From Silicimonas algicola (lineage in GTDB: Bacteria > Pseudomonadota > Alphaproteobacteria > Rhodobacterales > Rhodobacteraceae), in contig NZ_QGGV01000006.1 of assembly GCF_003148765.1 (NCBI RefSeq), positions 186,001-250,000 of the forward strand: a DNA stretch of 64,000 nucleotides. The letters run 5' to 3'. Of this stretch, positions 8,947 to 53,875 are shown one piece after another. The notes under the pieces were generated by a model. The model did no database searches and was not told the origin of the DNA. It worked only from the letters and a program-made list of their open reading frames with translations. The first letter of the stretch is position 1. Each line of letters starts with the position of its first letter. The position numbers and the translations under genes were made by a program.

Positions 8947-9306
8947 ATGAGTGACCTCGTTCTGGTGGTGGATGACGAGGCATTGATTGCTCTCGATCTT
9001 TCGGCGACCGTTGAGCAAAGCGGCCGAAAGGTCCTGGGTCCCGCCTTCAGCCTCGATCAGGCGCGCAGTCTCATCGCCCGGCAGACGCCCGAGCTGGCGA
9101 TCCTGGACATCAACGTCGGAAACGAGGTCGTGTGGCCGCTGGCGCGCGAGCTGTCGGGTCGCGGATGTGCGGTGATCTTCATCAGCGGAGACGGGCGTCA
9201 GCGCATGGACGTGCCCGAATTCGCCGAGGTTCCCTGCCTCGAGAAGCCGACCACGCCGCGCGACGTCATCGAGGCGCTCGATACCGTCGTGGGCATGCGG
9301 GACTAG
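8947..9306 (+). CDS. Single-domain response regulator (receiver only)
   Basis: A 119-residue receiver domain with no output domain. The acidic pair D9-D10 (VVDDEA), the phospho-acceptor D54 (LAILDIN) and the conserved lysine in CLEKP near residue 98 are all present, so it should be phosphorylatable. A GAGGGTGG ribosome site precedes the ATG. It points toward the large HWE kinase gene, and the two stop codons overlap (9303-9306), a tight convergent pair. Single-domain receivers next to HWE kinases in alphaproteobacteria commonly act as phosphate sinks or relay proteins. That it is the cognate partner of the neighbouring kinase is inferred from position. Confidence 0.85.
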   Translation: MSDLVLVVDDEALIALDLSATVEQSGRKVLGPAFSLDQARSLIARQTPELAILDINVGNEVVWPLARELSGRGCAVIFISGDGRQRMDVPEFAEVPCLEKPTTPRDVIEALDTVVGMRD

Positions 9307-12300
9307 ACCAGCTTCGGGAAGACGAGCGTGCGGCGGAAGCCCTCGTCGGTCTCCTCGCCTTCGACGGTCGCGCGAAGCTGAAGCGCCGTTGCCTCGATCA
9401 GCGCGGTGCCGAAGCCGCTGCCCGAGCTTCTGGACCTGTCCTTGCCACTTTCGATCCACTCGACGCGGACGGTATCCTCGCCGTCCTCGACGCGAACCGT
9501 GACGATGCCGTCAGGCACGGTCAGGGCCCCGTACTTCGTCGCATTCGTCGCCCACTCATGGAAGATCAGCGCCAGAGACGTGAGCTGCGAGGTGTCCACC
9601 TCGAGATCCAGCCCTTCATAGACGAAGGATTGTTGATCGCGGGCCGGTTCAAGCACGGTCTCGACAATACCCCTCAGCGTCGCCTGACGGACCTCGGTGC
9701 CTTCGTTCGTCAGGGAATGGGACTGCCCGAGCGCCCTGATGCGCGACCGCAGTTCCATCGCGAAATCATCCACGTCCTGCGCTTCGCGGGCGCAAATCGA
9801 GACAAGCGCCGAGATGATGGCGAAGAGGTTCTTCAACCGATGGTTCATCTCGCGGATCATGAGCTCGCGCTGGCTCAGAAGCTCACGCTCGGCGGTGACG
9901 TCGTAGGTCACGCCGATGAACTTGCGCCCGCGATGGCGGAAGTGCCGCTTGCCCAGGCCGTGAAGCCAGCGGCGACGCCCGCCACCAAGGGGGATCGAGA
10001 AGACCTCGTCGAAATCGCGGGTGCCGTCCATCGCCTGCCGCAGCGCCGTGTTGACGCGGTCGCGGTCCTCGGCGGTCATCCTCGACAGGATCCGCTCCAT
10101 CGTGTCGCCTTCGCCTTCGCCGAGGTTCAGAAGCCAGCGCTCGGTCTTGTCGAGGCGGGTGAAGTCGGTATCGGGTTCGTACTCCCAGATGCCGATGCGC
10201 GCGACCTCTAGCGCAAGCCGCAGGCGTTCACGTTCTTCCTCGAGGTCGCGGGCGAGAGCGAGCGTCTCGGTCACGTCGGTTAGCACGAGGATGGCACCGT
10301 CCGTGGACCCGTCCTTCTTCTTGTAGGGCGTCGCGCGACCGAGGAATTCGCGTGTGCCGTCTGACGAGGTGGCACGGAATTCCGAGCTTGTGTCCTGCTT
10401 CGCCGCCTGGGTGAGGCGTTCGACGAATTCGCTGTCTGTGAGGTTCGCTTCAAGCTGATCGAGCGCGGTGCCATCCTTGTCTCCGGCGCCGGGAAACACC
10501 CGGTCGACGGACGAAGACGTGCTTCGGACCCGCAGATCGCGGTCCACGACGACGACGACGAGCTCGGTCGAGGTGAAGAAGTTCGTCAGGTCGGCGTTGG
10601 CCACTATAAGCTGGTCGACCTTCGTCTTCAGCTCGTCGTTGACGGTGGTCAGCTCCTCGTTCGTCGACTGAAGCTCCTCGTTCATCGACATCATTTCTTC
10701 GTTCGAGCTCTTCAGCTCCTCGTTCGTCGTCTCGAGTTCCTCGATGGCCGTTCTCAGCCGATAGCGCGTCGCCTGAAGCTCTTCCTCCAGATACCGGACC
10801 TGTCCTTCCTCGGGACGAACCTCGAGATAGTCGTCGGTGTCGATGGGCGTCAGCTCGCCACTTTCGCGAATGACCAGGAGATAGGCATCGTCGTCGATCG
10901 GCTCGCACATGACGTTGACGGTCATCAGGCCGAAGTCGGTATGGACCTCGACGTCGCGCACGATCGCTCGGGCCGCGCCCTTGACCACGTCGCGCAGGAG
11001 ACCGCCCAGGACGTCACGCAATCCGGCACGGGCCAGGCTCGGGACATGGACCGTCCGCTCGATCCTGTCCGGAAAATCGAGGTAGCGGCCGACCTTGCCC
11101 CATCTGCTCAGGAGGTTTCCCTCGGCATCGACAAGAAGGCTGACCGGTGCATAGCTTTCGGCGATACGCCTCAGGGCATCGGCTTCGGCCGAGACCTCGC
11201 GTCGCTGCGACATGACCTGATCGCTGAGGCCCGGCAGGCGTTCGGCCCGGCGCGCGCGGGGCTGCGCGATCTGGAGGTTGTAGCGCCCCTGCACGGTCCG
11301 GCGAAGGAACACGCGGGCCGACTGGTCGACAACCTCGAACAGATCCTCATACCGCTGGATCGCCTCGGACGAGCCCAAGAAGAGAAATCCGTCCTGGCGG
11401 AGCGCGAAGTGGAACAGCGGCACGACCTGCCGCTGCAGCGTCTCCTCGAAGTAGATCAGCAGGTTCCGGCACGAGATCAGGTCCATGCTGGAGAACGGCG
11501 GGTCCTTGATCAGGCTGTGCAGGCTGAAGCGCACCATGTCCCGGATCTTCGGAGCGATGACGACGTGCTGGTTGTTGCCGATGGTGAAGCGCTGCCGGTA
11601 TTCGGCCGGAATGTCGCTGAGGGAGGACAGGGGATAGGTGCCTGAGCGCGCGATGGACAGCATCTTCTCGTCGATGTCGGTTGCGAAGATCTGGACGTTC
11701 AGCCGCCGGTTTCTCTTCTCGATCTCGTCAGCGAAAAGCATGGCCATCGAGTAGGCTTCCTCGCCGCTGGAGCAGCCGGCGACCCAGACGCGGATCTCGT
11801 CGTCTTCCATCGCGCGTTCGACAAGGGGCGCCACGACGATCTCGCGCAGGGCTTCGAACTCGTGGGTGTCGCGGAAGAACTTGGTGACGTTGATGAGAAG
11901 GTCGCTGAACAGCGCCATGCACTCGCCGTCGTCCTTGTGGACGCGGTCGGCATAGGTGGTGGCGCTGTCGATGCCGAGGACCTGCATCCGCCGCGCCACA
12001 CGCCGGGCCATCGTCGAGCGCTTGTAGCCCGAAAAGTCGTGTCCCGTGGCCTGCGACAGCGATTGGCACAGGTCCTCGAGGTGGTCGACGATCTCGGCCG
12101 GTCCGCCGTTGGGTTCACCCGGCTGGAAGTTGAAGAAGCGCCGAAGATAGCTCAGCATTTCCGACGGCGGGGCGACGACGTCGACAAGGCCTGTCCGCAT
12201 CGCCGAGACCGGCATCCCGTCATAGCGCGCCGTCTCGGGCTCCTGCGCGAGGCAGACGCCACCGTTTTCCTTGATCGCGCGCAGGCCGCGGCTGCCGTCG

Positions 12301-12692
12301 CCTCCGGTGCCCGACAGGATCACGCAGGCCGATAGCGCACCCACATCCTCGGCGAGGCTTTCGAAGAAATCGTCGATCGGGCGGCGCAGGCCCCTCGGGT
12401 CAACGAATTCGGTCAGATGAAGCGTGCGGTCGCCGACGACAAGGCCGTGGCCGGGAGGGATGACATAGACGTGGTCGGCCTCCAGCGCCTCGCCGCCCTC
12501 GGCCTGGCGGACGTGCATGGACGTATAGCGCTCGATCAGTTGCGCCATGAGGGATTCGTGGTTGGGGTCGAGGTGCTGGATGACCACGAAGGCCATTCCG
12601 GTCGTTCCCTTGTATCCCGCGAAGAGTTCGCGCAGGGCTTCCAGGCCTCCGGCCGAGGCGCCTACGCCAATGATGGGCAGCGACGTGTCCAT
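9303..12692 (-). CDS. CheB-CheR-PAS-HWE hybrid sensor histidine kinase
   Basis: A 1129-residue cytoplasmic signalling protein. Domain order: CheB methylesterase (about 1-185; S13 in GASAGG, H40, D132 in GTGGDG), CheR methyltransferase (about 200-465; NVTKFFRD and the SAM loop GCSSGEEAYSM), a linker PAS region (about 505-615), a long coiled coil rich in EELxxxNEEL heptads (about 632-705), two PAS domains (about 705-930), then an HWE-type kinase with phospho-histidine H951 (MNHRLKNLF), N-box N1050 (HEWATNATKYGAL) and the WxE motif (EWIES). No receiver precedes CheB and no transmembrane segment is seen. I chose ATG 12692 because the CheB domain starts immediately; the open frame further upstream overlaps the LOV gene. 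It lies 17 bases behind the LOV gene, so the two are probably cotranscribed. Confidence 0.9.
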   Translation of the reverse strand: MDTSLPIIGVGASAGGLEALRELFAGYKGTTGMAFVVIQHLDPNHESLMAQLIERYTSMHVRQAEGGEALEADHVYVIPPGHGLVVGDRTLHLTEFVDPRGLRRPIDDFFESLAEDVGALSACVILSGTGGDGSRGLRAIKENGGVCLAQEPETARYDGMPVSAMRTGLVDVVAPPSEMLSYLRRFFNFQPGEPNGGPAEIVDHLEDLCQSLSQATGHDFSGYKRSTMARRVARRMQVLGIDSATTYADRVHKDDGECMALFSDLLINVTKFFRDTHEFEALREIVVAPLVERAMEDDEIRVWVAGCSSGEEAYSMAMLFADEIEKRNRRLNVQIFATDIDEKMLSIARSGTYPLSSLSDIPAEYRQRFTIGNNQHVVIAPKIRDMVRFSLHSLIKDPPFSSMDLISCRNLLIYFEETLQRQVVPLFHFALRQDGFLFLGSSEAIQRYEDLFEVVDQSARVFLRRTVQGRYNLQIAQPRARRAERLPGLSDQVMSQRREVSAEADALRRIAESYAPVSLLVDAEGNLLSRWGKVGRYLDFPDRIERTVHVPSLARAGLRDVLGGLLRDVVKGAARAIVRDVEVHTDFGLMTVNVMCEPIDDDAYLLVIRESGELTPIDTDDYLEVRPEEGQVRYLEEELQATRYRLRTAIEELETTNEELKSSNEEMMSMNEELQSTNEELTTVNDELKTKVDQLIVANADLTNFFTSTELVVVVVDRDLRVRSTSSSVDRVFPGAGDKDGTALDQLEANLTDSEFVERLTQAAKQDTSSEFRATSSDGTREFLGRATPYKKKDGSTDGAILVLTDVTETLALARDLEEERERLRLALEVARIGIWEYEPDTDFTRLDKTERWLLNLGEGEGDTMERILSRMTAEDRDRVNTALRQAMDGTRDFDEVFSIPLGGGRRRWLHGLGKRHFRHRGRKFIGVTYDVTAERELLSQRELMIREMNHRLKNLFAIISALVSICAREAQDVDDFAMELRSRIRALGQSHSLTNEGTEVRQATLRGIVETVLEPARDQQSFVYEGLDLEVDTSQLTSLALIFHEWATNATKYGALTVPDGIVTVRVEDGEDTVRVEWIESGKDRSRSSGSGFGTALIEATALQLRATVEGEETDEGFRRTLVFPKLV

Positions 12693-12709
12693 GTCGTTCC
12701 GTGCGTTGT

Positions 12710-13234
12710 CTAAAGCCTGTGACGCGCGATGAGCGCGTTGGAGTTGGCGATTATGTTGTAGTTGGCAAGTAGGTTCCACTGGGTGGGCCGCAAGACCGAG
12801 GCAATTGCCTGGACGTCGCGTGTCAGCGCCCCCGCGTAGGCCTCGATGTCGCCGCGGTCGCCATCTCCGACGTCGAACTGCGAGGCGAGGATCAGTGCGT
12901 CCTCGCCTGCAAAGACTAGCCGCGACATGTAGACCAGGTTGAGAAAGCGCGAGCCGTCCTTGCGGATGTTCGGGATCAGGAAGTGGGCGTCGGTCGTCTT
13001 GCCATCGTTGACGAAGGCATGCATCCGCACGCGCACCGGTCCCGCGCCGGTATTGGGCTGCAGGAAGCGGCAATTGCGCCCCAGCATCTCGTCCGGGCCA
13101 TAGCCGGTGATACGGCAGAAGGGCTCGTTCACGGCGACGAGGGGGCAGTCGGGCAGCCGGGTATCGCCCACGGTCATCGCGACGCGGCTATTCCGGACAT
13201 GGGTCTCCAGGCCGTCAGGAAGGGCATCGGTCAC
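12710..13234 (-). CDS. Short LOV blue-light photoreceptor protein
   Basis: A 174-residue protein with one PAS/LOV domain and short flanking helices. The photoactive motif GRNCRFLQ is complete, with adduct cysteine C55. The flavin-contacting positions N89 (NIRKDG), N99 (FLNL) and Q119 (ASQFDV) are also present, so an FMN-cysteinyl photocycle is expected. There is no output domain; the C-terminal helix (about 130-174) may mediate dimerisation. Length and layout match the short LOV proteins known from Rhodobacter. The GTG start follows GGAGGAG at good spacing. It is encoded directly upstream of the CheB-CheR-HWE kinase, which suggests that it feeds light information to that kinase. The photoreceptor call is strong; the partner is inferred. 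Confidence 0.9.
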   Translation of the reverse strand: MTDALPDGLETHVRNSRVAMTVGDTRLPDCPLVAVNEPFCRITGYGPDEMLGRNCRFLQPNTGAGPVRVRMHAFVNDGKTTDAHFLIPNIRKDGSRFLNLVYMSRLVFAGEDALILASQFDVGDGDRGDIEAYAGALTRDVQAIASVLRPTQWNLLANYNIIANSNALIARHRL

Positions 13235-13284
13235 GCGGTTCTCCTCCGATCAGTCGATAAGGCGGGACGATGCCGGCGAGACCG

Positions 13285-15705
13285 TCATCGGTCCGAGACC
13301 CAGGCTTCAAGCCGCTCGACGACGCGGGCATTCAGTGTGGCGGGTTCCGGCCGGTCGGGCACGGGGCGGTCGAGTGCCTCGCGGATCGACACGCCATTCG
13401 CACGGCGGAACGAAGGCAGTTCGTCCCAGGTCACGGGGACTGCGACGGGCGCGCCCGGCCTCGCCCGAAGCGACCACGGAGCGATGGCCGTCGATCCTCT
13501 CTCGTTGCGCATCCAGTCGATGAAGATGCGCCCCTCGCGTTTGGCCTTCGACATGGTGGCGACGAAGCGCTTCGGTTCAGCGGCGGCGAGATGCGCGGCG
13601 AAGGTGCGGGCGAAGAGGGAGACGGCCGGCCAGTCCGCCGTCCGGCGCAGGGGAACAACGACGTGAATTCCCTTGCCGCCGGTCAGAAGGGGCCAGGACG
13701 GCAGGCCGAGACTTTCCAGCCTGTCGCGCACGTCGAAGGCGGCCTTCCGCACCTTGGCAAACCCGAGACCCTCATCGGGGTCGAGGTCGAAGACCATGCG
13801 GTCCGGGCGCTCGAGCCGGTCCCGCCGCGAGCCCCAGATGTGGAACTCGATGGTGCCGACCTGAGCCGCGCCGACAAGGCCTTCGGCCGTCGTGATGGTC
13901 ATGTAGTCCTCGACACCGCCGTTCTTTTCGGGAATCGGGATAGATCGGATGGCGTCGGGAAAGCCCTTGCCGCGGTGCTTCTGGAAGAACGACTCTCCGC
14001 CCAGCCCCTCCGGTAGCCGCACCAGCGACAGCGGCCGGTCGGCCATGTCCGGGAGCATCCGCTCGGCGACCTGGGCGTAGTAGTCCGCGACGTCGCCCTT
14101 CGTGACCTTGGGCTTCGGAAAGACGACCCGGTCCGCCGAGCTGATGGCGACGCCCGAAACGGTGATGGCGTCCTTCGCCACGAGGCGCGCCGCGGCGGGA
14201 CGCACGACCTGCGCTGGCGGCTTGTCGTCGCGCAGCCCGATGAAAGTCGCGTGACGCAGGCGGCCCTGATCCGTCGTCTCGGCATAGCGGATCTCGGCGA
14301 CGAGGCGGGGCGTCACCCATGTTACCCCCTTCGCTTCCGCCGCCTCGACGTCCACGGGCGCAGACTTGCGGGCGAGCGGCTTCAGCTTCGCGGCAAGATC
14401 GTCGGCAGTCTCTCCGTCCCACCCGGTGCCGACCTTGCCGACATAGACCCAGCCCCCGGCATCCTCGACACCGAGGAGGAGCGAGGCGAAGGGCCGCCCG
14501 CGCTTGTCGGACGCCTGCCAGCCGAGGATGACGAATTCGTCGCGTTTGATGCACTTGATCTTCTGCCAGACCGTCGAGCGTCCGCCGCGATAGGGGGCGT
14601 CGATGCGCTTCGAGATCAGGCCCTCGCCGCCGGTGTCGCAGATCGACTGGAACGCGCCGTCGGCATCGCCTCGCAGGACGGGCGAGAGTTGAAGCCGGCC
14701 AAGGGGCGGTGTGTCGTCGAAGAGACCTTCCAGAGCGTCGCGTCGAGCGTCAAGAGGCTGGGACACAAGGCTTTTGCCGTCGAGCCAGAGAAGGTCGAAG
14801 GCGTTGAGCGTGAAAGGCCCACCCGCCGAAATCGCGCGCTGAAGCGCACCGAAGCCGTAAAGACCCGCGCCGACGGTCACCTCCGCGTCGATCAGCGCCG
14901 TGTCGCAGTCGAGACGCTCCAGCGGGCGGACGAGCGGCGCGAAACGGTCCGTCCAGTCGTGCCCGTTGCGCGAGAAGATGCGCACGCCAGACTTTCCGAC
15001 GGCGCACAAGGCGCGATAGCCGTCGAACTTCAGTTCGTGCCACCGCGACCCGGGATCACCGAGAGCGTCGGTCTGCGTCGCGAGTTGCGGCGCGCGCCAC
15101 TTCGGCGTCACGCCTTTTCGCTTCGCAACCGGTACCGGCGCCTCGTCCTTGGCGATGGCGTCGAAGCCTCGGTTCGTGACCACGCTGGTCTTGTAGCGCT
15201 CGACGGGGTCGGGGGCGTGCGCCGCCTCGTCATCTTCCTTCATCAGAAGCCAGTTCGTGCGCTTACCCTCGCGGTTCATGCGCACGAGGTTCCACTTTCC
15301 GCTCATCCGCTCGCCATGAAGCGCGAAGTGCAGATGGCCTTTCTTCAACCCTTTCTGGACGTCCATGAGCGGCTGCCAGTGTCCGATGTCCCAGAGCATG
15401 ACGGTGCCCGCGCCGTAGTTGCCCTCGGGGATCGTGCCCTCGAACGTCAGGTAGTCGAGCGGGTGGTCCTCGGTTTCAACCGCCAGACGCTTCTCGCCCG
15501 GATCTAGCGAGGGGCCCCGCGTTATCGCCCAGGACAGCAGAACGCCATCCCACTCCAGTCGAAGGTCCCAGTGCAGCCGCGTGGCGTCGTGGTTCTGGAT
15601 GGAATAGGCGGGTGCCAGGCCACCGGTCGCCGAGACGCCCGAACCGTCAGGCTCGGGCGTCGCCGCGAAATCGCGCATCCCGTGATATCGATCGAGCCGG
15701 GCCAC
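13285..15705 (-). CDS. ligD: Multifunctional DNA ligase D (PE-LIG-POL), non-homologous end joining
   Basis: An 806-residue LigD that repairs double-strand breaks with Ku. The N-terminal 3'-phosphoesterase is at about 30-160 (HDATRLHWDLRLEWDG), the ATP-dependent ligase at about 205-500 with nucleophile K226 in HELKFDGYRA, and the archaeo-eukaryotic primase-like polymerase at about 520-800 (DLDPDEGLGF carries the metal aspartates). The PE-LIG-POL order is that of Pseudomonas LigD rather than the mycobacterial order. The start is GTG, one base after the Ku stop, so the pair is translationally coupled. It is transcribed toward the LOV/kinase genes, which are on the same strand with a 50-base gap. 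Confidence 0.95.
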   Translation of the reverse strand: MARLDRYHGMRDFAATPEPDGSGVSATGGLAPAYSIQNHDATRLHWDLRLEWDGVLLSWAITRGPSLDPGEKRLAVETEDHPLDYLTFEGTIPEGNYGAGTVMLWDIGHWQPLMDVQKGLKKGHLHFALHGERMSGKWNLVRMNREGKRTNWLLMKEDDEAAHAPDPVERYKTSVVTNRGFDAIAKDEAPVPVAKRKGVTPKWRAPQLATQTDALGDPGSRWHELKFDGYRALCAVGKSGVRIFSRNGHDWTDRFAPLVRPLERLDCDTALIDAEVTVGAGLYGFGALQRAISAGGPFTLNAFDLLWLDGKSLVSQPLDARRDALEGLFDDTPPLGRLQLSPVLRGDADGAFQSICDTGGEGLISKRIDAPYRGGRSTVWQKIKCIKRDEFVILGWQASDKRGRPFASLLLGVEDAGGWVYVGKVGTGWDGETADDLAAKLKPLARKSAPVDVEAAEAKGVTWVTPRLVAEIRYAETTDQGRLRHATFIGLRDDKPPAQVVRPAAARLVAKDAITVSGVAISSADRVVFPKPKVTKGDVADYYAQVAERMLPDMADRPLSLVRLPEGLGGESFFQKHRGKGFPDAIRSIPIPEKNGGVEDYMTITTAEGLVGAAQVGTIEFHIWGSRRDRLERPDRMVFDLDPDEGLGFAKVRKAAFDVRDRLESLGLPSWPLLTGGKGIHVVVPLRRTADWPAVSLFARTFAAHLAAAEPKRFVATMSKAKREGRIFIDWMRNERGSTAIAPWSLRARPGAPVAVPVTWDELPSFRRANGVSIREALDRPVPDRPEPATLNARVVERLEAWVSDR

Positions 15706-15706
15706 G

Positions 15707-16561
15707 TCAGGCCTTCTTCCGCCGCGACCCCTTGGCGGGCGTCTTGGGCGCGGCCTTGCCCTTGTCGGCCTTCAGGCTGTCCTTCAGGGCCGCCATCAGG
15801 TCGATGACGTTGTCGCCGCTCTTGCCGCCACCGGACTTGGCGTCGGGTCCGGTCCTGGCGCGCGGGGTCTTGCGGTTCTTGCGCTTGGCCTCGATCAACT
15901 CGCGAAGGGCCACATCGTAGTGATCCTTGAAGGCGTCGGCATCGAAGGGCGCCGTCTTTCGGTCGATCAGTTCGGTTGCGACCGCCAGAAGGTCCTTGTC
16001 CGCCTCCTCGTCCTCAATGGAGGCGAACAGCGGATCGGCCGCCTTGATCTCGTCGGCATAGTGCAGCGTCTCGAGAAGCAGGCCGTCGCCGCAGGGGCGG
16101 ATCGCACAGAGGTATTCCTTGCCGCGCATCGTGAGCTGCCCCAGCCCCGTCTTTTCGCTGGCGCGGAGGGCGTCCCGGACGACGCGATAGGCGTCCTCGG
16201 CCAGGTCGTCGGTCGGAACGACGTAGTAGGGCTTGTCGAAGTAAAGCGGCGGGATCTCGCAGGAGCCGACGAATTGCACCAGTTCCAGCGTCTTCTTCGT
16301 CTCGAGCCTGATGGCGTCGATCTCGTCGGGTTCGAGAAGGAGATATTCGTCGTTGCCGATCTCGTAGCCCTTCATGATCTCACCCGCATCGACAGGACCG
16401 ACGCCGGGCACCGTCTTCTCGTACCGGACCCGTTGCCCCGACCCCTTGTGAATCTGACGGAACTCGATCCGGGCGCCGGTCTTGGTCGCCGAATGGATCT
16501 CGACCGGGATCGACACCAACGACAGGCGTAGCTGACCTTTCCAGAGCGCGCGCGATGCCAT
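15707..16561 (-). CDS. ku: Ku homodimer protein (NHEJ)
   Basis: A 284-residue bacterial Ku that binds and bridges DNA ends and recruits LigD. The N-terminal Ku core begins SRALWKGQLRLSLVSIPVE, the standard bacterial start; the core runs to about residue 230. A basic lysine- and arginine-rich tail follows (KAAPKTPAKGSRRKKA), as expected for DNA binding and LigD interaction. I used ATG 16561 rather than the longer upstream frame because the conserved MASRALWKG starts there. The gene is first in a two-gene operon with ligD, one base apart. Confidence 0.95.
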   Translation of the reverse strand: MASRALWKGQLRLSLVSIPVEIHSATKTGARIEFRQIHKGSGQRVRYEKTVPGVGPVDAGEIMKGYEIGNDEYLLLEPDEIDAIRLETKKTLELVQFVGSCEIPPLYFDKPYYVVPTDDLAEDAYRVVRDALRASEKTGLGQLTMRGKEYLCAIRPCGDGLLLETLHYADEIKAADPLFASIEDEEADKDLLAVATELIDRKTAPFDADAFKDHYDVALRELIEAKRKNRKTPRARTGPDAKSGGGKSGDNVIDLMAALKDSLKADKGKAAPKTPAKGSRRKKA

Positions 16562-16734
16562 GACGGTCTCCTTTCGCGACTCCCAATGCGCGAAGGGCCG
16601 AGTCGGTTGCATTCATCCGGCTCGGAGAGGCGGGGTCGACACGCCAACCCCTCTGTTCGGACGAGAAGAACGGACCGTTGAGACGCCGATACGCGATGCC
16701 GTGATCGCCCAGGCGCTCGCGGAAGAGTGACGCT

Positions 16735-45944: not shown

Positions 45945-48041
45945 ATGAACGCTCCCGCAGCGATCACCAAACGTCCGGTCCTTGCGGGGTCGGACGTCCC
46001 GCTTGGCGCGACGTGGGACGGCTCCGGCACCAATTTCGCTCTCTTTTCGGCCCATGCGGAAAAGGTCGAACTCTGCCTGTTCGACAACCGTGGTCGCCGC
46101 GAGATCGAGCGCATCGAGCTGCCCGAGTTCACCCACCAGGTCTGGCACGGTTACCTGCCCGACGTCCGACCCGGACAGCTTTACGGCTATCGCGTTCACG
46201 GTCCCTACGCGCCCGAGGCAGGACACCGTTTCAACCCGAACAAGCTTTTGCTCGACCCCTATGCCCTCCAGCATAAGGGCGACCTGCGCTGGCACGAGTC
46301 CCTGTTCGGCTACCGTCTGGGCCACGACAAGGCAGACCTGTCGTTCGACCGCCGCGACAGCGCGTTCGTGATGCCAAAGTGCGTCGTCGTCGATGGAGCC
46401 CATACGTGGGGCGGGGACATCCGGCCCGGCGTGCCGTGGGGTCGCACGATCGTCTACGAGGCACATGTGGGCGGCATGACGATGGGCCATCCGGACATTG
46501 AACGGCCCCTGCGCGGCACCTTCGAGGGACTTGCCGATCCTCGCGTGATCGACCACCTCGTCAAGCTCGGCGTCACCTCGCTGGAATTGCTGCCGGTCCA
46601 GGCCTTCTATGACGAGGGCCACCTGACCGAGAAGAACCTCGTCAATTGGTGGGGCTACCAGACACTCGGCTTCTTCGCCCCGGCTCCCCGCTACCTCACG
46701 ACGGACGGCAGCCTGCACGAATTCAAGCTGATGGTCCGCCGACTGCACGAGGCGGGCATCGAGATCATCATGGATGTCGTCTACAACCACACCGCCGAAG
46801 GGTCCGAGCGTGGGCCGACCATGTCTTTCCGCGGGATCGACAACGCGTCCTACTACACGCTGGCCGACGATCCGCGTCACTATTTCGATACCACCGGCTG
46901 CGGCAACTCGCTGAACCTGCGGAATTCGCGCGTGCTTCAGATGGTCATGGACTCGCTGCGGTACTGGGTCGAAGTGTGCCATGTCGACGGCTTCCGCTTC
47001 GACCTCGCGACGACTCTGGGCCGCGACCGCGACCACTACAGCGAGCATGCGATCTTTCTCGAGGCAGTGCGACAGGACCCGATCCTGGCCGGCGTGAAGC
47101 TTATCGCCGAGCCCTGGGACACCGGCCCGAACGGCTATCAGGTGGGCAACTTTCCCCCGGGCTGGTCGGAATGGAACGACCGTTACCGCGACACCACCCG
47201 CGCCTACTGGAAGGGCGACGAGGGCATGCTGCCCAAGATCGCCAATGGCCTTCTCGGTTCGGCCGACACTTTCTCGCACGACGGGCGCCGCCCGTGGGCG
47301 AGCATGAATTTCATCACCGCGCACGACGGGTTCACGCTGATGGACCTCGTTTCCTACAACGAGAAGCACAACGAGGCGAATGGCGAGGACAACCGCGACG
47401 GCCATTCCCACAACCTCAGTTGGAACTGCGGTGTCGAGGGCGAGACAGACGACCCCGACATCATCGCCCTGCGCGACCGTCAGCGGCGCAACCTGATGGC
47501 GACGCTCCTGTTCAGCCAGGGAACGCCGATGCTGCTGATGGGCGACGAGCGCGGGCGAAGCCAGGGCGGCAACAACAACTCCTACTGCCAGCCGGGCGAA
47601 ATGAACTGGTTCGACTGGGACACCTCCGAACGAGACCGCGACTTCGAGGCTTTTGTCCGCGGCCTGATCCGCATCCGGAAAAGCCGCGGTCTCTTCCTCG
47701 CCGATCGCTACCTGCACTCCGGACCCGACGCGCGGCACAACCGCTTTGCCAGGTGGCTGCGCCCTGACGGCCAGCAGATGGAGGACAGCGACTGGGACAA
47801 CGGGATCAGCCGGTCTGTCGGCCTGCTTCTGCACGAGCGTGAGACGTTTCTTCTGATGCTGCTGAACGCGAGTGATGGCGATCTCGATTTCGTCCTTCCA
47901 GGCGGGGATGAGCGGGACTGGCAGCAGCTGGTCGACACCTACGAGGCCGTGGCCGATCCGACGGGGCAAACCATCATCACCGGCGCGACGGTCAAGCTGC
48001 CGGCCCGCACGCTGATGCTGCTGGAAACCGACCGTGGCTGA
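45945..48041 (+). CDS. glgX: Glycogen debranching enzyme GlgX
   Basis: A 698-residue GH13 isoamylase-type enzyme that cleaves alpha-1,6 branches of glycogen or limit dextrin. The N-terminal CBM48 (about 10-110) precedes the catalytic barrel. The nucleophile is D353 in DGFRFDLA and the acid/base is E389 in IAEPWDTG, with a TAHDGFTL aspartate later. A GGAG ribosome site precedes the ATG. It overlaps treZ by eight bases and starts a four-gene operon that converts glycogen and maltodextrins to trehalose. Isoamylase TreX is the alternative name in trehalose operons of other bacteria; GlgX length fits here. Confidence 0.92.
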   Translation: MNAPAAITKRPVLAGSDVPLGATWDGSGTNFALFSAHAEKVELCLFDNRGRREIERIELPEFTHQVWHGYLPDVRPGQLYGYRVHGPYAPEAGHRFNPNKLLLDPYALQHKGDLRWHESLFGYRLGHDKADLSFDRRDSAFVMPKCVVVDGAHTWGGDIRPGVPWGRTIVYEAHVGGMTMGHPDIERPLRGTFEGLADPRVIDHLVKLGVTSLELLPVQAFYDEGHLTEKNLVNWWGYQTLGFFAPAPRYLTTDGSLHEFKLMVRRLHEAGIEIIMDVVYNHTAEGSERGPTMSFRGIDNASYYTLADDPRHYFDTTGCGNSLNLRNSRVLQMVMDSLRYWVEVCHVDGFRFDLATTLGRDRDHYSEHAIFLEAVRQDPILAGVKLIAEPWDTGPNGYQVGNFPPGWSEWNDRYRDTTRAYWKGDEGMLPKIANGLLGSADTFSHDGRRPWASMNFITAHDGFTLMDLVSYNEKHNEANGEDNRDGHSHNLSWNCGVEGETDDPDIIALRDRQRRNLMATLLFSQGTPMLLMGDERGRSQGGNNNSYCQPGEMNWFDWDTSERDRDFEAFVRGLIRIRKSRGLFLADRYLHSGPDARHNRFARWLRPDGQQMEDSDWDNGISRSVGLLLHERETFLLMLLNASDGDLDFVLPGGDERDWQQLVDTYEAVADPTGQTIITGATVKLPARTLMLLETDRG

Positions 48042-49758
48042 CATCGCCTACACATGGGGTGCCGGTCCGTCCGGGGAAGGCAAGTGGCGGTTCCGGCTTT
48101 GGGCGCCGGGACTGGAACGGCTGTTGCTGCGATTGAACGGTGGCGATCACGCGATGGAGGCCGTCGGCGATGGTTGGTTCGCGCTCGAACGGCCGGCGGA
48201 GGAGGGCGATGCCTACGGCTTTGTCCTTTCCGACGGGCTGGTCGTGCCCGACCCGGCGGCGCGCCGCCAGCAGAAGGGTGTCCACGGGCTGTCCCTCGTC
48301 ACCGCTCCACGCCGGGGCGAATTCTGGGCGGGACGCCCCTGGGAAGAGACGGTGATCTACGAATTGCATGTGGGCACCTTCACCCAGGCAGGGACCTACA
48401 CTGCCGCTGCGGCTGAGCTCGACCGGCTTGCGGCTCTCGGTATCACCGCCATCGAGCTATTGCCGGTTTCCCAGTTCGGCGGTGAACGCGGCTGGGGCTA
48501 TGACGGGGTGCTGCCCTATGCGCCGCACCCGGTCTATGGCACGCCCGACGACCTCGCCGCCTTCGTCGCCGCCGCGCACGAGCGTGGGCTGATGGTTCTC
48601 CTCGACGTCGTCTACAACCACTTCGGTCCCGACGGGAACTACCTCCACGCCTACGCGCCAGGCTTCTTCGACGAACATCGGCACACGCCCTGGGGCGCGG
48701 GGATCGACTACCGCGAGCCCCCCGTCCGCCGCTTCTTCATCGAGAACGCCCTCTACTGGCTCGCCGAATACGGCTTCGACGGTCTGCGCCTCGATGCGAT
48801 CGATCAGATCGAGGACCCGTCCAATCCCGAGCTGCTGGTCGAGCTGGCGCAGGAGTTGCGCGCGCGTCTCGACCGGCCGGTGCATCTGACGACCGAGGAC
48901 AACCGGAACGTCACGCACCTCCACGAGCGCAGGCAGGACGGCGAGATCCTGCTCCATTCGGGCGAATGGAACGACGATTTCCACAACGCCGCCCACGTTC
49001 TCGCCACGGGTGAGAGCGAGGGTTACTACCGCGACTATGCCGGCGACCCTCTCGGCCTCCTGGGCCGTTCACTTGCGGAGGGGTTTGCCTTTCAGGGCGA
49101 GACCGGGCGGGGCGAGCCCTCCGCCCACCTGCCGCCGACGGCCTTCGTGGACTTCCTGCAGAACCACGACCAGACGGGCAACCGCGCCCGCGGCGAGCGG
49201 CTTGCGACGCTGACCGACCCGGAGACGCTGGAGGCGCTGACGGCGATCCTCTTGTTGTCGCCGCACATCCCGATGCTGTTCATGGGCGAGGAATACGGAG
49301 AGACCCGCCCGTTCTGCTTCTTCGCCGGCTTCGAGGGCGAGCTTGGCGAGGCCGTGCGCAAGGGGCGCCGCGAGGAATTCAGGGGCTTTGTCGGCTTCGA
49401 CAACGTGCCCGATCCGATCTCGGCTCAGACGATGGCCGCCTCGACGCTCGACCCGGCGCGGCGCGACAGCAGGGCAGGGCAGGACGCCCAGGAGCGGGTG
49501 AAACGGTTGCTGCACCTGCGCCATACCGAAATCGTGCCGCGCCTTGCCGGGACGGGTGGCGGCGCCGGGCGGTTGCTGGCGGCCGCTGATGGAGCACTTG
49601 CAGTGGACTGGCAGCTCGACGGAGGGTTGCTGCAGTTGCGGGCCAACTTCGCAGACGCACCGCGCGAGTTGCCGGCGGTGGACGGCACGGAACTGCACAA
49701 GGTGGGGGAGCTTGGCGCGCCAAAAAGCGCAGTGCACTGGCTGCGGGTGTCCGCATGA
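48034..49758 (+). CDS. treZ: Malto-oligosyltrehalose trehalohydrolase
   Basis: A 574-residue GH13 enzyme that releases trehalose from maltooligosyl-trehalose. The N-terminal CBM48-like domain (about 10-100) leads to the barrel with YELHVGTFTQAGTY near residue 110, DVVYNHFGPDGNY near 190, the nucleophile in FDGLRLDAIDQIEDP near 250 and HLTTEDNRN near 287. It starts with GTG within the end of glgX and overlaps malQ by four bases. The length is close to that of known TreZ proteins (about 560-600). It works with the treY product at the end of the operon. Confidence 0.93.
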   Translation: MADIAYTWGAGPSGEGKWRFRLWAPGLERLLLRLNGGDHAMEAVGDGWFALERPAEEGDAYGFVLSDGLVVPDPAARRQQKGVHGLSLVTAPRRGEFWAGRPWEETVIYELHVGTFTQAGTYTAAAAELDRLAALGITAIELLPVSQFGGERGWGYDGVLPYAPHPVYGTPDDLAAFVAAAHERGLMVLLDVVYNHFGPDGNYLHAYAPGFFDEHRHTPWGAGIDYREPPVRRFFIENALYWLAEYGFDGLRLDAIDQIEDPSNPELLVELAQELRARLDRPVHLTTEDNRNVTHLHERRQDGEILLHSGEWNDDFHNAAHVLATGESEGYYRDYAGDPLGLLGRSLAEGFAFQGETGRGEPSAHLPPTAFVDFLQNHDQTGNRARGERLATLTDPETLEALTAILLLSPHIPMLFMGEEYGETRPFCFFAGFEGELGEAVRKGRREEFRGFVGFDNVPDPISAQTMAASTLDPARRDSRAGQDAQERVKRLLHLRHTEIVPRLAGTGGGAGRLLAAADGALAVDWQLDGGLLQLRANFADAPRELPAVDGTELHKVGELGAPKSAVHWLRVSA

Positions 49759-51572
49759 GTGCCCAGCTCGATCGGCTCGCGCGCCACCATGGCGTCACGC
49801 TTGCTTACGACGACCCCTTCGGCGACGGCAAACGACCCGTGCCGGACGCGACTAAGCGGCTGATCCTGGACGGTCTCGGGCAAGACCCGGACGGACCGCC
49901 GCATGGGCTGCCCGCGCCGCGGCGCATGAGCGTGCCCGAGGGCGCTCGCTGTTACACGCCACCTTCGCTCGCGCAATCGCCCGGCTGGGGCATCTTCTGC
50001 CAGCTCTATGAACTCCGCTCGTCCCGCAACTGGGGGATCGGCGACTTCTCCGACCTCGAGATGCTTGCAGGGATCGCCGGCCGGGCCGGGGCCGATTTCC
50101 TTGGCATCAACCCTGTCCACGCCCTGTTCCTCGCGGCTCCGGACCGGCGCAGCCCCTTCTTCCCGTCGAACCGCCGCTTTCTCAATCCGCTCTACATCGC
50201 CCCCGACAGGCTTGGCCTCGAGGCGACCGACGAGGTCGCAACTCGGCGCGAGGCGGATCTGCTGGACTACCCGGCCCTCGTGGCGGTCAAGCTGTCCGCG
50301 CTGCGCGAGGCCTTTGACGCTGGTGTCCGCACCGAAGGGCTTGAAGCCTTCGCCGACGGAGAGGGGGAGGCCCTTGCGAGGCACGCGTTGTTCGAGGCGA
50401 TCTCGGCCCGCATGGTGGCGGAGGGACGCGGCGCGGGCTGGCGAGACTGGGAAGAGGCACTGCAGGTTCCCGAGAGCGATGCCGTGGCCGCCTTGCAGGT
50501 CGAGCTTGCCGACGAGGTCCGCTTCCACACCTGGCTTCAGATGATCGCACGCGAGCAGATAGGAGCCGCCGCCGACGCCGCCCGCGCGGCGGGAATGCGG
50601 ATTGGCCTCTACCTCGACCTTGCCGTCGGCGAGGCGCCCGACGGCTCGGCCACCTGGTCGGGCGCGGCGGCGGCACTTCCGGGGCTGTCGGTCGGCGCGC
50701 CGCCCGACATGTTCGCCACCGAAGGCCAGAACTGGGGCCTCGCCGCCCCATCGCCCACCGCCTTGCGTGCCGCCGATTTCGCCCCCTTCCGGGACATGAT
50801 CGAAGCGCAACTCCGCAGCGCCGGGGCGCTCAGGATCGACCATGCCATGGCGCTCTGGCAACTCTTCCTCGTTCCCGAGGGTGCGAGCCCGGCCGAGGGC
50901 ACGCACCTGCGCTTTCCGTTCCAGGACATGGTGCAGGTGCTCGCGGACCTCAGCCAGCGGCACGAGGCGGTGGTGATCGGCGAAGACCTGGGTTTCGTGC
51001 CGAAGGGCTTTCGCCGCGCAATGGAGACGGCGAACATTCTCTCTTACCGGATCCTCGTCTTCGAGCAGACGGAGAAGGGATTCAAGGGCCTCGCGCGCTA
51101 TCCCGAGGCCGCGCTCGCCTGCATCTCGACCCACGACCTGCCTGTCCTGTCGGCCTGGTGGCGCGGAGAGGATGTAGAGCGGCGGCGCGAGCACGGGCTT
51201 GTCGACGAGGAACGGTCCGACATGGATGCGCTTCATCGCAAGACCGAGCGCGACGACCTGCTGCGCGCTCTTCGTCGCGCGGGCGTCCTGAGCGGGCAGA
51301 TCGATGTCGACGCGGCCGAGATGCCCCTTGGGGTGCTGGATGCCTGTCACCGCTTCCTTGCCCGCACGAAGAGCCGCCTCGTCGGCGTGCGGCTGGCCGA
51401 CCTCGTCGGTCCCGCCGTGCCGACGAACCTGCCCGGCACGCTCGACCAGTACCCGAACTGGAGGCCGCGCAGTCCGACCGACCTGGACTCTCTCGAGACC
51501 CACCCCGTGTTCGCTGCCACCGCCGCGTTGATGCGGCAGGAACGTCCGCGCCCAGAGGACGCGACAGAATGA
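49755..51572 (+). CDS. malQ: 4-alpha-glucanotransferase
   Basis: A 605-residue GH77 amylomaltase that transfers maltosyl units between maltodextrins. Family segments are LYELRSSRNWGIGDFSDLE near residue 82, INPVHALF near 118, FFPSNRRFLNPLY near 135, ALRIDHAMALWQLF near 357 (nucleophile aspartate) and VVIGEDLGFVPKGF near 407 (acid/base glutamate). It overlaps both treZ and treY by four bases. In this operon it probably lengthens short maltodextrins so that TreY can use them. It is somewhat shorter than Escherichia MalQ (694) and nearer plant-like GH77 sizes. Confidence 0.93.
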   Translation: MSAQLDRLARHHGVTLAYDDPFGDGKRPVPDATKRLILDGLGQDPDGPPHGLPAPRRMSVPEGARCYTPPSLAQSPGWGIFCQLYELRSSRNWGIGDFSDLEMLAGIAGRAGADFLGINPVHALFLAAPDRRSPFFPSNRRFLNPLYIAPDRLGLEATDEVATRREADLLDYPALVAVKLSALREAFDAGVRTEGLEAFADGEGEALARHALFEAISARMVAEGRGAGWRDWEEALQVPESDAVAALQVELADEVRFHTWLQMIAREQIGAAADAARAAGMRIGLYLDLAVGEAPDGSATWSGAAAALPGLSVGAPPDMFATEGQNWGLAAPSPTALRAADFAPFRDMIEAQLRSAGALRIDHAMALWQLFLVPEGASPAEGTHLRFPFQDMVQVLADLSQRHEAVVIGEDLGFVPKGFRRAMETANILSYRILVFEQTEKGFKGLARYPEAALACISTHDLPVLSAWWRGEDVERRREHGLVDEERSDMDALHRKTERDDLLRALRRAGVLSGQIDVDAAEMPLGVLDACHRFLARTKSRLVGVRLADLVGPAVPTNLPGTLDQYPNWRPRSPTDLDSLETHPVFAATAALMRQERPRPEDATE

Positions 51573-53875
51573 CTCTCCCCACCGCGTGTTATCGCCTGCA
51601 ATTCCGCAACGGCATGGACTTCGACCGTGCTGCCGGCCTCGTACCGTATTTCGCGCGTCTCGGTGTAAGCCACCTTTACGCCTCACCTCTGTTCACCGCG
51701 CAGCCCGGATCAACTCACGGCTACGACATCACCGATCCAAACGAGATCGACCCCGAGATTGGCGGCCGGGACGGGCTGAGAAGGCTTTCCGCTGTTCTCA
51801 AGGAGAACGGCCTCGGCCTTGTCCTTGATATCGTGCCCAACCACATGGCCTTTTCCGTCGCCACTCCCTGGTTGCGCGACGTGCTGCGCAACGGCGCCGA
51901 AAGCCGCTATTCCGGCCACTTCGACCTCGACCCCACCGCAGAACGCATCCGGCTGCCCTGGCTGACCGCGCCGTTCGAGAGCATCCTCGCGGGCGAGGGG
52001 GACGGCTTTTCGATCGACGACGATCCCGACGGGCCGGTACTCGTCACCGGCGGACTGCGTGTGCCGTTGGCAGAGACGGCCTCTCTAGACAAGGCGCGGG
52101 GTGGTGATCGAGACGCCCTGCGCGACCTCCACGCCGAGCAGCCGTGGCGGCTCGTCCACTGGCGCACCGAAAGCGACGCGCTCAGCCATCGCCGCTTCTT
52201 CAACGTCACCGGACTGATCGGCGTGCGCGTCGAGGATGCCGCGGTGTTCGAGGACGCCCACCGGCTGCTGTTCGAGCTTGTCGACGAGGGCGTCGTGGAC
52301 GGCATCCGTATCGACCACGTCGACGGTCTTGCGGACCCGACCGGTTACCTCAGGCAGCTGCGCGAGCGTGTAGGCGACACGCCGATCTGGGTGGAGAAGA
52401 TCCTCTCCGGGACCGAGATGCCGCCGCGCGAGTGGCCTATCGAAGGTACGACGGGCTATGTCGTCGCCAGGGCGCTGAACCGTCTCTTGACGGACGCCGA
52501 GGGACTGGGGCGGATCGAGGCGACGTACCTCGATGCGACGGGACGCACCGAGTCCGTCGAGGATGCCCTCTGGACTGCGCGCCGCCAGATTATGACGCAC
52601 GACCTTGCGGCCGAGCTGTGGCAACTCTACCGCCAGTTTCACGAGATCGCGGCAGGCGACCCCGTGGGTGTCGAGTTCGGCCCGGAGAACCTGCGCGAGG
52701 CGCTTCTCGCCTTCATCGGCGCCTTCCCCCGCTATCGGACCTACATGACCGCCGAGACGATCACGGAGGACGACGTCAGGCTCGTCCAGCGTACCGGGGA
52801 CCGCGCCGCCGAGCGCCTTCAGGACCCTGGGGCGCTGCCGTTTCTCGTGGACGTGCTGACCCGCCCCGGTGCGGCGACCGCCCGGTTCCGTCTGCGAATG
52901 CAGCAGGTGACGGGCGCGGCGGTGGCAAAAAGCCAGGAGGACACGGCCTTTTACCGGGAAGTGAAACTTCTTTCGGCCAACGAGGTCGGCGGCGAGCCGG
53001 ACGACGATCCGCTCGGCTTCGAAGGCTTCCACCGCGCGATGGAGCGGCGTGCGCAGGTCATGCCCCACGGGCTGTCGCTCACCTCCTCGCACGATACCAA
53101 GCGCAGCGAGGACGCGCGGATGCGCATCGCCGCCATTACCCGCGAGCCTGCTGCCTTCGAGGCCTGGCACCGAATCTGCCGCGGTTTCGCTCCCGAGCGG
53201 ATCAACGACAACCTCGTCTGGTATGTCGCCCAGACATTCATCGCCATCGACCAGGCGGACGGCGAATTCGCCGACCGTCTCGCCGATCACATCGTGAAGG
53301 CTTTGCGCGAGGCCAAGACGGAAAGCTTCTGGACCGCGCCAGATCTTGAACTCGAGGAGGCAGCGCAGACCTACCTGCGCCGTCTCGCCGCGCACTTCCC
53401 GCACCATGCCCGGGAAGTGGACCCGATCCTTGTCGAGGCCGACCGGATGTCGATGGTACAGACCGCACTGAAGCTGACCATCCCCGGTATCCCCGACATC
53501 TACCAGGGGTGCGAGCTTGCGTCCTACGCCCTGACCGATCCCGACAACCGCCGTCCGGTCGATTTCGACCTGCGGGCGCAGGCGCTCGAGGACCTGTCGG
53601 TGCTGTCTCGGCCGCTGGACTCGGTGAAGCTCGACCTCACTCGGGCTCTGCTCCGGGCGAGGCGCTCGCATCCCGAGCTGTTTCTCGACGGGACCTACAA
53701 CCGGCTCGAGACGCCGGAGGGGGTTTTCGGCTTCGAACGGAAGCACGGTCAGCGGACCGTCTGCGTTGCGGTCAGCCTGCGCGAGAAGAGCTTGGACACT
53801 GTCTTGACGGGAACGCCGCTCTGGCCGCGCAAAAACGGGCCGGATTGTGCATCCGTGCGCATCACACTCGACTGA
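51569..53875 (+). CDS. treY: Malto-oligosyltrehalose synthase
   Basis: A 768-residue GH13 enzyme that turns the reducing-end alpha-1,4 bond of maltodextrin into the alpha,alpha-1,1 bond of trehalose. The N-terminal ATCYRLQFRNGMDFDRA-type start and LGVSHLYASPLF near residue 30 are diagnostic, as are GTTGYVVARALNRLL near 295 and VDGIRIDHVDGLADP near 245 (nucleophile). The late TSSHDTKRSEDARMR segment near 505 is typical too. The length is in the TreY range (about 700-850). It is the last gene of the glgX-treZ-malQ-treY operon and needs TreZ to release trehalose. Confidence 0.93.
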   Translation: MTLPTACYRLQFRNGMDFDRAAGLVPYFARLGVSHLYASPLFTAQPGSTHGYDITDPNEIDPEIGGRDGLRRLSAVLKENGLGLVLDIVPNHMAFSVATPWLRDVLRNGAESRYSGHFDLDPTAERIRLPWLTAPFESILAGEGDGFSIDDDPDGPVLVTGGLRVPLAETASLDKARGGDRDALRDLHAEQPWRLVHWRTESDALSHRRFFNVTGLIGVRVEDAAVFEDAHRLLFELVDEGVVDGIRIDHVDGLADPTGYLRQLRERVGDTPIWVEKILSGTEMPPREWPIEGTTGYVVARALNRLLTDAEGLGRIEATYLDATGRTESVEDALWTARRQIMTHDLAAELWQLYRQFHEIAAGDPVGVEFGPENLREALLAFIGAFPRYRTYMTAETITEDDVRLVQRTGDRAAERLQDPGALPFLVDVLTRPGAATARFRLRMQQVTGAAVAKSQEDTAFYREVKLLSANEVGGEPDDDPLGFEGFHRAMERRAQVMPHGLSLTSSHDTKRSEDARMRIAAITREPAAFEAWHRICRGFAPERINDNLVWYVAQTFIAIDQADGEFADRLADHIVKALREAKTESFWTAPDLELEEAAQTYLRRLAAHFPHHAREVDPILVEADRMSMVQTALKLTIPGIPDIYQGCELASYALTDPDNRRPVDFDLRAQALEDLSVLSRPLDSVKLDLTRALLRARRSHPELFLDGTYNRLETPEGVFGFERKHGQRTVCVAVSLREKSLDTVLTGTPLWPRKNGPDCASVRITLD

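Follow-up and report, generated by a model that had tools for sequence, protein, structure and literature searches.

Among the closest described relatives of the locus studied here are Caulobacter LovK-LovR and Brucella LOV-HK (LovhK), alphaproteobacterial systems that combine a LOV input, an HWE histidine kinase and a single-domain receiver and are linked to the stress response. In both, LOV domain and kinase form a single chain, which has neither CheB nor CheR. RsLOV, the short LOV protein of Rhodobacter sphaeroides, is a dimer in the dark and dissociates in light. In 2022, RsLOV and DsLOV were listed as short LOV proteins without a known binding partner (PMC9758184), and RsLOV serves as an optogenetic switch (PMC9614035). 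Here, we analyzed 64,000 nucleotides of Silicimonas algicola (contig NZ_QGGV01000006.1, positions 186,001 to 250,000; hereafter the window), in which three adjoining genes encode a stand-alone LOV protein, a CheB-CheR-PAS-HWE histidine kinase and a single-domain receiver (Table 1). Judged from their sequences, these genes are best read as one light-sensing two-component system whose photoreceptor is a separate protein. LOV-controlled HWE signaling is of a known kind; the variant described here combines a separate photoreceptor with CheB and CheR fused to the kinase. We found no description of this pairing in the open-access literature, a scope that does not include three R. sphaeroides papers (Hendrischk 2009, Metz 2012 and Conrad 2013) in which the neighboring gene could be mentioned.

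A preliminary description of the locus had proposed the conservation of the gene pair in other genomes as a check. We scanned one genome per species with the LOV sequence alone as the query and called neighboring modules with a hidden Markov model for each domain; as the pattern was drawn from LOV proteins of this cassette, the resulting 80 loci from named genomes sample that subfamily. A CheB-CheR-PAS-PAS-HWE kinase adjoined LOV in 78 of 79 evaluable loci, with a few kinases clipped by a contig end (of the other two loci, L079 breaks off at the edge of its contig, and L118 encodes a fused LOV-PAS-HWE protein). The pairing extends over Rhodobacterales, Sphingomonadales, Hyphomicrobiales and Asaia, i.e., at least four alphaproteobacterial orders. 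A receiver nearly always follows the kinase; L073 alone lacks it, and elsewhere the gaps are explained by contig ends, by one reading frame that is too long (L071) and by one receiver that is frame-joined (L031). Gene order is LOV-kinase-receiver in 76 loci, and the LOV gene is divergent in 6 (among family members, it is co-directional in L002 and divergent in L004, L006, L007 and L013). The median distance from the LOV stop codon to the CheB domain is 57 nucleotides, and the receiver domain begins at about the kinase stop. All seven inspected plasmid loci with a stand-alone LOV show the pairing, and plasmid records from Sagittula, Novosphingobium, Sphingomonas, Sphingobium and Rhizobium carry LOV, kinase and receiver. 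In a less biased search of 248 Rhodobacteraceae genomes, for which the query was a LOV from outside the cassette (30 loci examined), stand-alone LOV adjoined CheB-CheR in 11 of 13 cases and a dynamin-like pair in 2. The window has the composition of this conserved cassette, namely, a stand-alone LOV next to a CheB-CheR-PAS-HWE kinase and one receiver. Because the cassette recurs in about 90 loci overall, with varied genomic surroundings, its three-gene arrangement is not due to chance.

The distance matrices of LOV, CheB, CheR and HWE correlate at 0.91 to 0.95 (LOV-CheB, 0.94; LOV-HWE, 0.93; CheB-CheR, 0.95), and the co-divergence of LOV and kinase is nearly as tight as that between CheB and CheR. 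Together with the conserved pairing and the intact residues described below, the LOV-kinase correlations of 0.93 to 0.94 uphold the earlier proposal that the two proteins belong together as a unit. From this pattern, we consider it likely that LOV acts in trans on the adjoining kinase. PmSB-LOV of Pseudomonas mendocina is likewise a stand-alone short LOV, and it acts in trans on the product of the gene beside it (PMC9758184), although this partner, PmlR2, is a MerR-type repressor, whereas the neighbor here is a kinase. Because LOV is repeatedly encoded beside the same kinase and receiver across alphaproteobacteria, this kinase is the most likely partner of RsLOV-type sensors, RsLOV included. 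In a genome with a close relative of RsLOV (G051; E = 5e-91 against crystallized RsLOV, 4hia), the divergent neighbor of LOV is a 1,170-residue CheB-CheR-PAS-PAS-HWE kinase, composed like that of the window and followed by a receiver. The LOV gene of the RsLOV type is divergent from the kinase, whereas lov in the window is co-directional with it.

The preliminary description had reported a complete LOV domain (GRNCRFLQ and the flavin-contact residues) encoded 17 bases upstream of an 1,129-residue HWE kinase with complete CheB and CheR, and a receiver-only protein converging from the other side. The residue check of the lov reading frame, the frame coordinates, Pfam with the intact catalytic residues, and the receiver and kinase stop codons, which overlap by 4 bp, bore this out. 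Pfam assigns a PAS domain to the LOV protein, which has the GxNCRFLQ cysteine and a complete flavin-contact set (Asn54, Cys55, Arg56 and Gln59 in the motif; Asn89, Asn99 and Gln119). The main contact residues and the photoactive cysteine are invariant in all 89 paired LOV proteins aligned. A genome search found it to be the sole LOV homologue in its own genome. A Shine-Dalgarno sequence (GGAGGAG, 13241-13247) lies 6 nucleotides upstream of the GTG start, and the same-strand gap to the kinase is consistent with co-transcription of the two genes.

The LOV protein was modeled from 58 relatives (mean predicted local distance difference test [pLDDT] score of 89); plasmid rows were excluded from the alignments behind the two structure predictions. 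The model matched RsLOV (4hia/4hj4/7ob0) at a Z of ~22 over 160 to 163 residues, N- and C-terminal helices included, yet sequence identity is 28 to 31%; the next-best structural family reached a Z of 17. An RsLOV entry was the best solved-structure relative. By sequence and model, then, the entire protein corresponds to a short LOV of the RsLOV type, stand-alone and with an N-cap and a C-terminal helical extension, and not a fragment of a LovK-type kinase. The extension is a candidate contact to the kinase.

The kinase scores above the HWE cut-off and has an H-box histidine (His951), an N-box histidine (His1045) and the WxE of the G1 box, whose Trp1079 and Glu1081 are kept in the cassette kinases. 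The CheB triad Ser13-His40-Asp132 is invariant (86/86), and Pfam places no receiver before this domain, which begins at residue 8, such that it lacks the layout of a CheB chemotaxis regulator. CheR comprises both of its domains with conserved motifs, the residues of which are kept in 83 of 83 sequences, except for Glu311 (80 of 83). The kinase model (pLDDT, 78; predicted template-modeling score, 0.42) gives usable domain limits, and its relative domain placement is unreliable. A profile for the third PAS matches almost exclusively the LOV-paired clade. Mean identity to the window modules is 64% for CheB, 56% for CheR, 39% for HWE, 35% for LOV and 31% for the receiver. Conservation of CheB and CheR exceeds that of the kinase core, so the reactions they catalyze are probably important; because the triads are invariant and no other module is as well conserved, we rejected the reading of CheB and CheR as decayed relics. 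The genome has 19 HWE kinase matches in all.

In the receiver, Asp54 and Lys100 are kept in 83 of 83 sequences. The FATGUY receivers MrrA, SdrG and Sma0114, single-domain proteins like the window receiver, serve HWE kinases (PMC5964349, PMC5898713). Their PFxFATG[G/Y] motif was not found here: the corresponding sequence is VIFISGD in the window and IFHSGH in the relatives.

Table 1. Features of the LOV-kinase-receiver locus in the window (positions on the forward strand)
Feature	Position	Strand	Basis
Single-domain response regulator, 119 aa	8947..9306	(+)	Pfam Response_reg, 31.4 bits vs cut-off 30.2
Receiver phosphoacceptor Asp54 codon	9106-9108	(+)	Alignment
CheB-CheR-PAS-coiled coil-PAS-PAS-HWE histidine kinase, 1129 aa	9303..12692	(-)	Pfam, model
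HWE kinase ATP-binding part, aa 1006-1126, with His1045, Trp1079, Glu1081	9315..9677	(-)	Alignment, model
HWE_HK phosphoacceptor region, aa 948-1027	9612..9851	(-)	Pfam, E 1.6e-15, 58 bits vs cut-off 22.8
Phospho-His951 codon	9840-9842	(-)	H box, invariant 85/85 (alignment)
Third PAS fold, aa 834-931, beside kinase core	9900..10193	(-)	Model, profile
PAS_10/PAS_4 domain, about aa 702-810 (PAS fold 712-806 in model)	10269..10589	(-)	Pfam, model
Long coiled coil, 78 residues, aa 631-708, EELETTNEELKSSNEEMMSMNEELQSTNEEL	10569..10802	(-)	Model
PAS-like fold, about aa 515-610	10863..11150	(-)	Model only
CheR methyltransferase domain, S-adenosylmethionine binding, aa 268-458	11319..11891	(-)	Pfam, E 5.7e-57
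CheR_N all-alpha domain, aa 204-254	11931..12083	(-)	Pfam
CheB methylesterase catalytic domain, aa 8-181	12150..12671	(-)	Pfam, E 8.6e-53, 179 bits
Gap from lov stop to kinase ATG (12692), 17 bp, same strand	12693..12709	(-)	
lov, stand-alone 174-aa LOV protein, RsLOV type	12710..13234	(-)	GTG start; profile, structure comparison
LOV C-terminal helical extension, residues 127-173, counterpart of RsLOV dimer helices	12716..12856	(-)	Structure
Photoactive Cys55 codon within GRNCRFLQ	13070..13072	(-)	Invariant, 89/89 paired LOV proteins (alignment)

The locus had also been described as a "split" blue-light phosphorelay. The separate photoreceptor stands, while the derivation from a divided LovK/LOV-HK kinase that the word suggests is the poorer reading. 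LOV and HWE occupy separate reading frames in the window rather than the one polypeptide of LovK and LOV-HK, and the NCBIfam model BluLightHisKinLov scored only 70 and 105 bits there against a cut-off of 450. LOV-free CheB-CheR-PAS-HWE kinases are common, mostly with an adjoining receiver. Those of Sinorhizobium fredii, Azospirillum oryzae and Methylobacterium radiotolerans have the same architecture and an adjoining receiver; LOV-free kinases are 32 to 38% identical to that of the window and match the third PAS weakly or not at all. On named plasmids, four of five inspected have the receiver, and that of Sulfitobacter does not. Because such kinases are common and the LOV is a full-length RsLOV type, recruitment in trans is a better reading than a split LovK, which we rejected as the simplest history.

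In a CheB-CheR tree (a quick tree, for which the program flagged long branches), the 79 cassette kinases form one clade (Shimodaira-Hasegawa-like approximate likelihood ratio test support, 99) and 4 RsLOV-type kinases another (100). Both share a branch (95) with a single LOV-free kinase, L155, around which we found no LOV remnant within 12 kb; 26 LOV-free kinases fall outside this branch. As LOV-free kinases mostly have an adjoining receiver, the widespread CheB-CheR-HWE-receiver system is probably older, and the photoreceptor probably joined it later, either once with a loss or twice, rather than being split off a LovK-type kinase. In Aureimonas, all five modules are nearest to sphingomonad versions, a pattern that fits a transfer of the unit as a whole. 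The S. algicola genome itself carries two very similar LOV-free CheB-CheR-PAS-HWE systems with receivers (L184:5515-9165 on contig C8 and L185:3760-7304 on contig C3), the C3 copy as two overlapping frames.

Several loci depart from the standard cassette. Natural LOV-PAS-HWE fusions of ~490 to 500 residues (L038, L039 and L118) are fused counterparts of the cassette without CheB or CheR, and they speak for LOV acting on this kind of kinase. The kinase frame is interrupted or shifted, through either decay or sequencing error, in L067, L089, L098, L106, L040 and L031, the last of which has receiver and kinase joined. One cassette, from a record titled Bacillus sp. 2B10 (L107), is 84 to 97% identical per module to Sphingomonas and is probably contamination. 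A second kind of short stand-alone LOV, seen in two genera, lies right behind two dynamin-family GTPase genes (L125:517-5442, G058:C4; L126:5851-9691, G015:C7). A 118-residue protein lies in between in L125, whereas in L126 the second GTPase carries the equivalent of this protein as a fusion; Pfam detects the GTPases and has no match for the small protein. A LOV sensor within a dynamin operon looks unusual.

We tentatively place the output of the cassette in the general stress response, rating this at slightly under an even chance. HWE kinases, single-domain receivers and PhyK/PhyT are known to form relays (PMC5964349, PMC5898713), and the role of PhyR in R. sphaeroides is narrow (PMC5830050). 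A single region of the S. algicola genome encodes PhyR, an extracytoplasmic function (ECF) sigma factor, two NepR matches and a PhyK-like HWE kinase; the second NepR match lies ~6.7 kb from phyR-nepR-ecfG. The 16 kb around these genes (L153, contig C3:298000-314000) contain nine GGAAC-N16-18-GTT sites, against 1.1 expected. NepR is present in all 40 cassette genomes tested, and in the family sample, it occurs in 6/6 paired versus 36/84 unpaired genomes (P = 0.008 by Fisher's test, uncorrected for kinship). These data support a stress-response context, with a nonspecific link to the cassette, because LOV in general tracks NepR.

Under the mechanism that we propose, the RsLOV-type protein would bind flavin, and blue light would form an adduct at Cys55 that alters the N- and C-terminal LOV helices. 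These helices would contact the kinase, with the coiled coil or the PAS domains as the likeliest site, and thereby modulate His951 autophosphorylation. From His951, the phosphoryl group would move to Asp54 of the receiver, which may pass it through an HWE/PhyK-type network to PhyR or act as a sink. CheB and CheR appear to be real enzymes, probably tuning the gain of this or another signaling complex through methylation. A bolder version, which we think rather unlikely in full, is that the LOV protein joins the kinase reversibly and sets both phosphorylation and methylation, making a two-component system with built-in methylation adaptation in which RsLOV would have the same kind of partner.

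Several observations weigh against light control of the kinase by LOV. Gene adjacency does not prove contact, and the co-divergence partly reflects common ancestry and block transfer. We found neither promoter nor terminator evidence for co-transcription of lov and the kinase gene, and lov also lies 50 bp behind ligD. The receiver is convergent with the kinase, an arrangement peculiar to the window, as the receivers of relatives run with the kinase, and it has IFISGD where the cassette motif is IFHSGH. As to the proposed output, the search for EcfG-type promoters gave none close to the cassette, against nine in the organism's own stress-response locus; EcfG promoter control of the cassette was therefore rejected. 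Finally, LOV genomes in the family sample track NepR whether paired or not (17/19 versus 25/71).

As a special case of LOV control of the kinase, kinase and receiver might drain phosphate from the stress-response hub and lower the response, as LovK with LovR does for MrrA (PMC5964349). The HWE class and the single-domain receiver are the same in both systems, but LovK has its LOV in the same chain, and a hub receiver was not identified in the window genome; we regard a sink as unlikely. Still less probable, in our view, is that LOV and kinase serve one pathway without touching, with LOV acting on a third protein, the kinase sensing through its own PAS domains and adjacency reflecting shared regulation. 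LOV proteins do act on regulators, a short LOV of Pseudomonas on the LitR regulator PmlR2 (PMC9758184) and a LOV protein of Dinoroseobacter on PpsR (PMC10890935), three PAS folds belong to the modeled kinase itself, and many CheB-CheR-HWE kinases function without any LOV. However, beside LOV only kinase and receiver are kept, with no regulator gene, and LOV-kinase co-divergence approaches that between two domains of one protein.

We give little credence to the cassette being mainly a light-controlled methylation device, in which LOV steers CheB and CheR to chemoreceptors and kinase and receiver provide feedback. CheB and CheR are the best-conserved modules, with intact catalytic residues, and chemoreceptors occur in 38 of 40 cassette genomes, but the HWE and receiver residues are just as invariant, and two of the 40 (draft assemblies) have no chemoreceptor. 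These two genomes are too weak a basis to prove another CheB/CheR substrate, and we dropped that argument. That the genes are chance neighbors, as the convergent receiver and the close ligD gene of the window might suggest, is already contradicted by a pairing kept in 78 of 79 loci across four orders and differing surroundings, and we assign it next to no probability.

Two groups of neighboring genes in the window deserve mention. A complete ku-ligD end-joining pair (13285-16612) shares the minus strand with lov and lies 50 bp upstream of it. We found no EcfG-type promoter at this pair; in Sphingopyxis, ku-ligD is among the targets of the stress response (PMC7083833). Farther away (45945-53875, plus strand), genes for the GlgX debranching enzyme, an alpha-amylase-family protein and the TreY malto-oligosyltrehalose synthase of the trehalose pathway follow one another.

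The gene pair, kept across four bacterial orders, names a testable partner for LOV proteins of the RsLOV type. If LOV does control the kinase in trans, the cassette would amount to a two-component system for light sensing whose input can be detached. Its fused and highly conserved CheB and CheR would then raise the question of whether such kinases use methylation outside classical chemotaxis.

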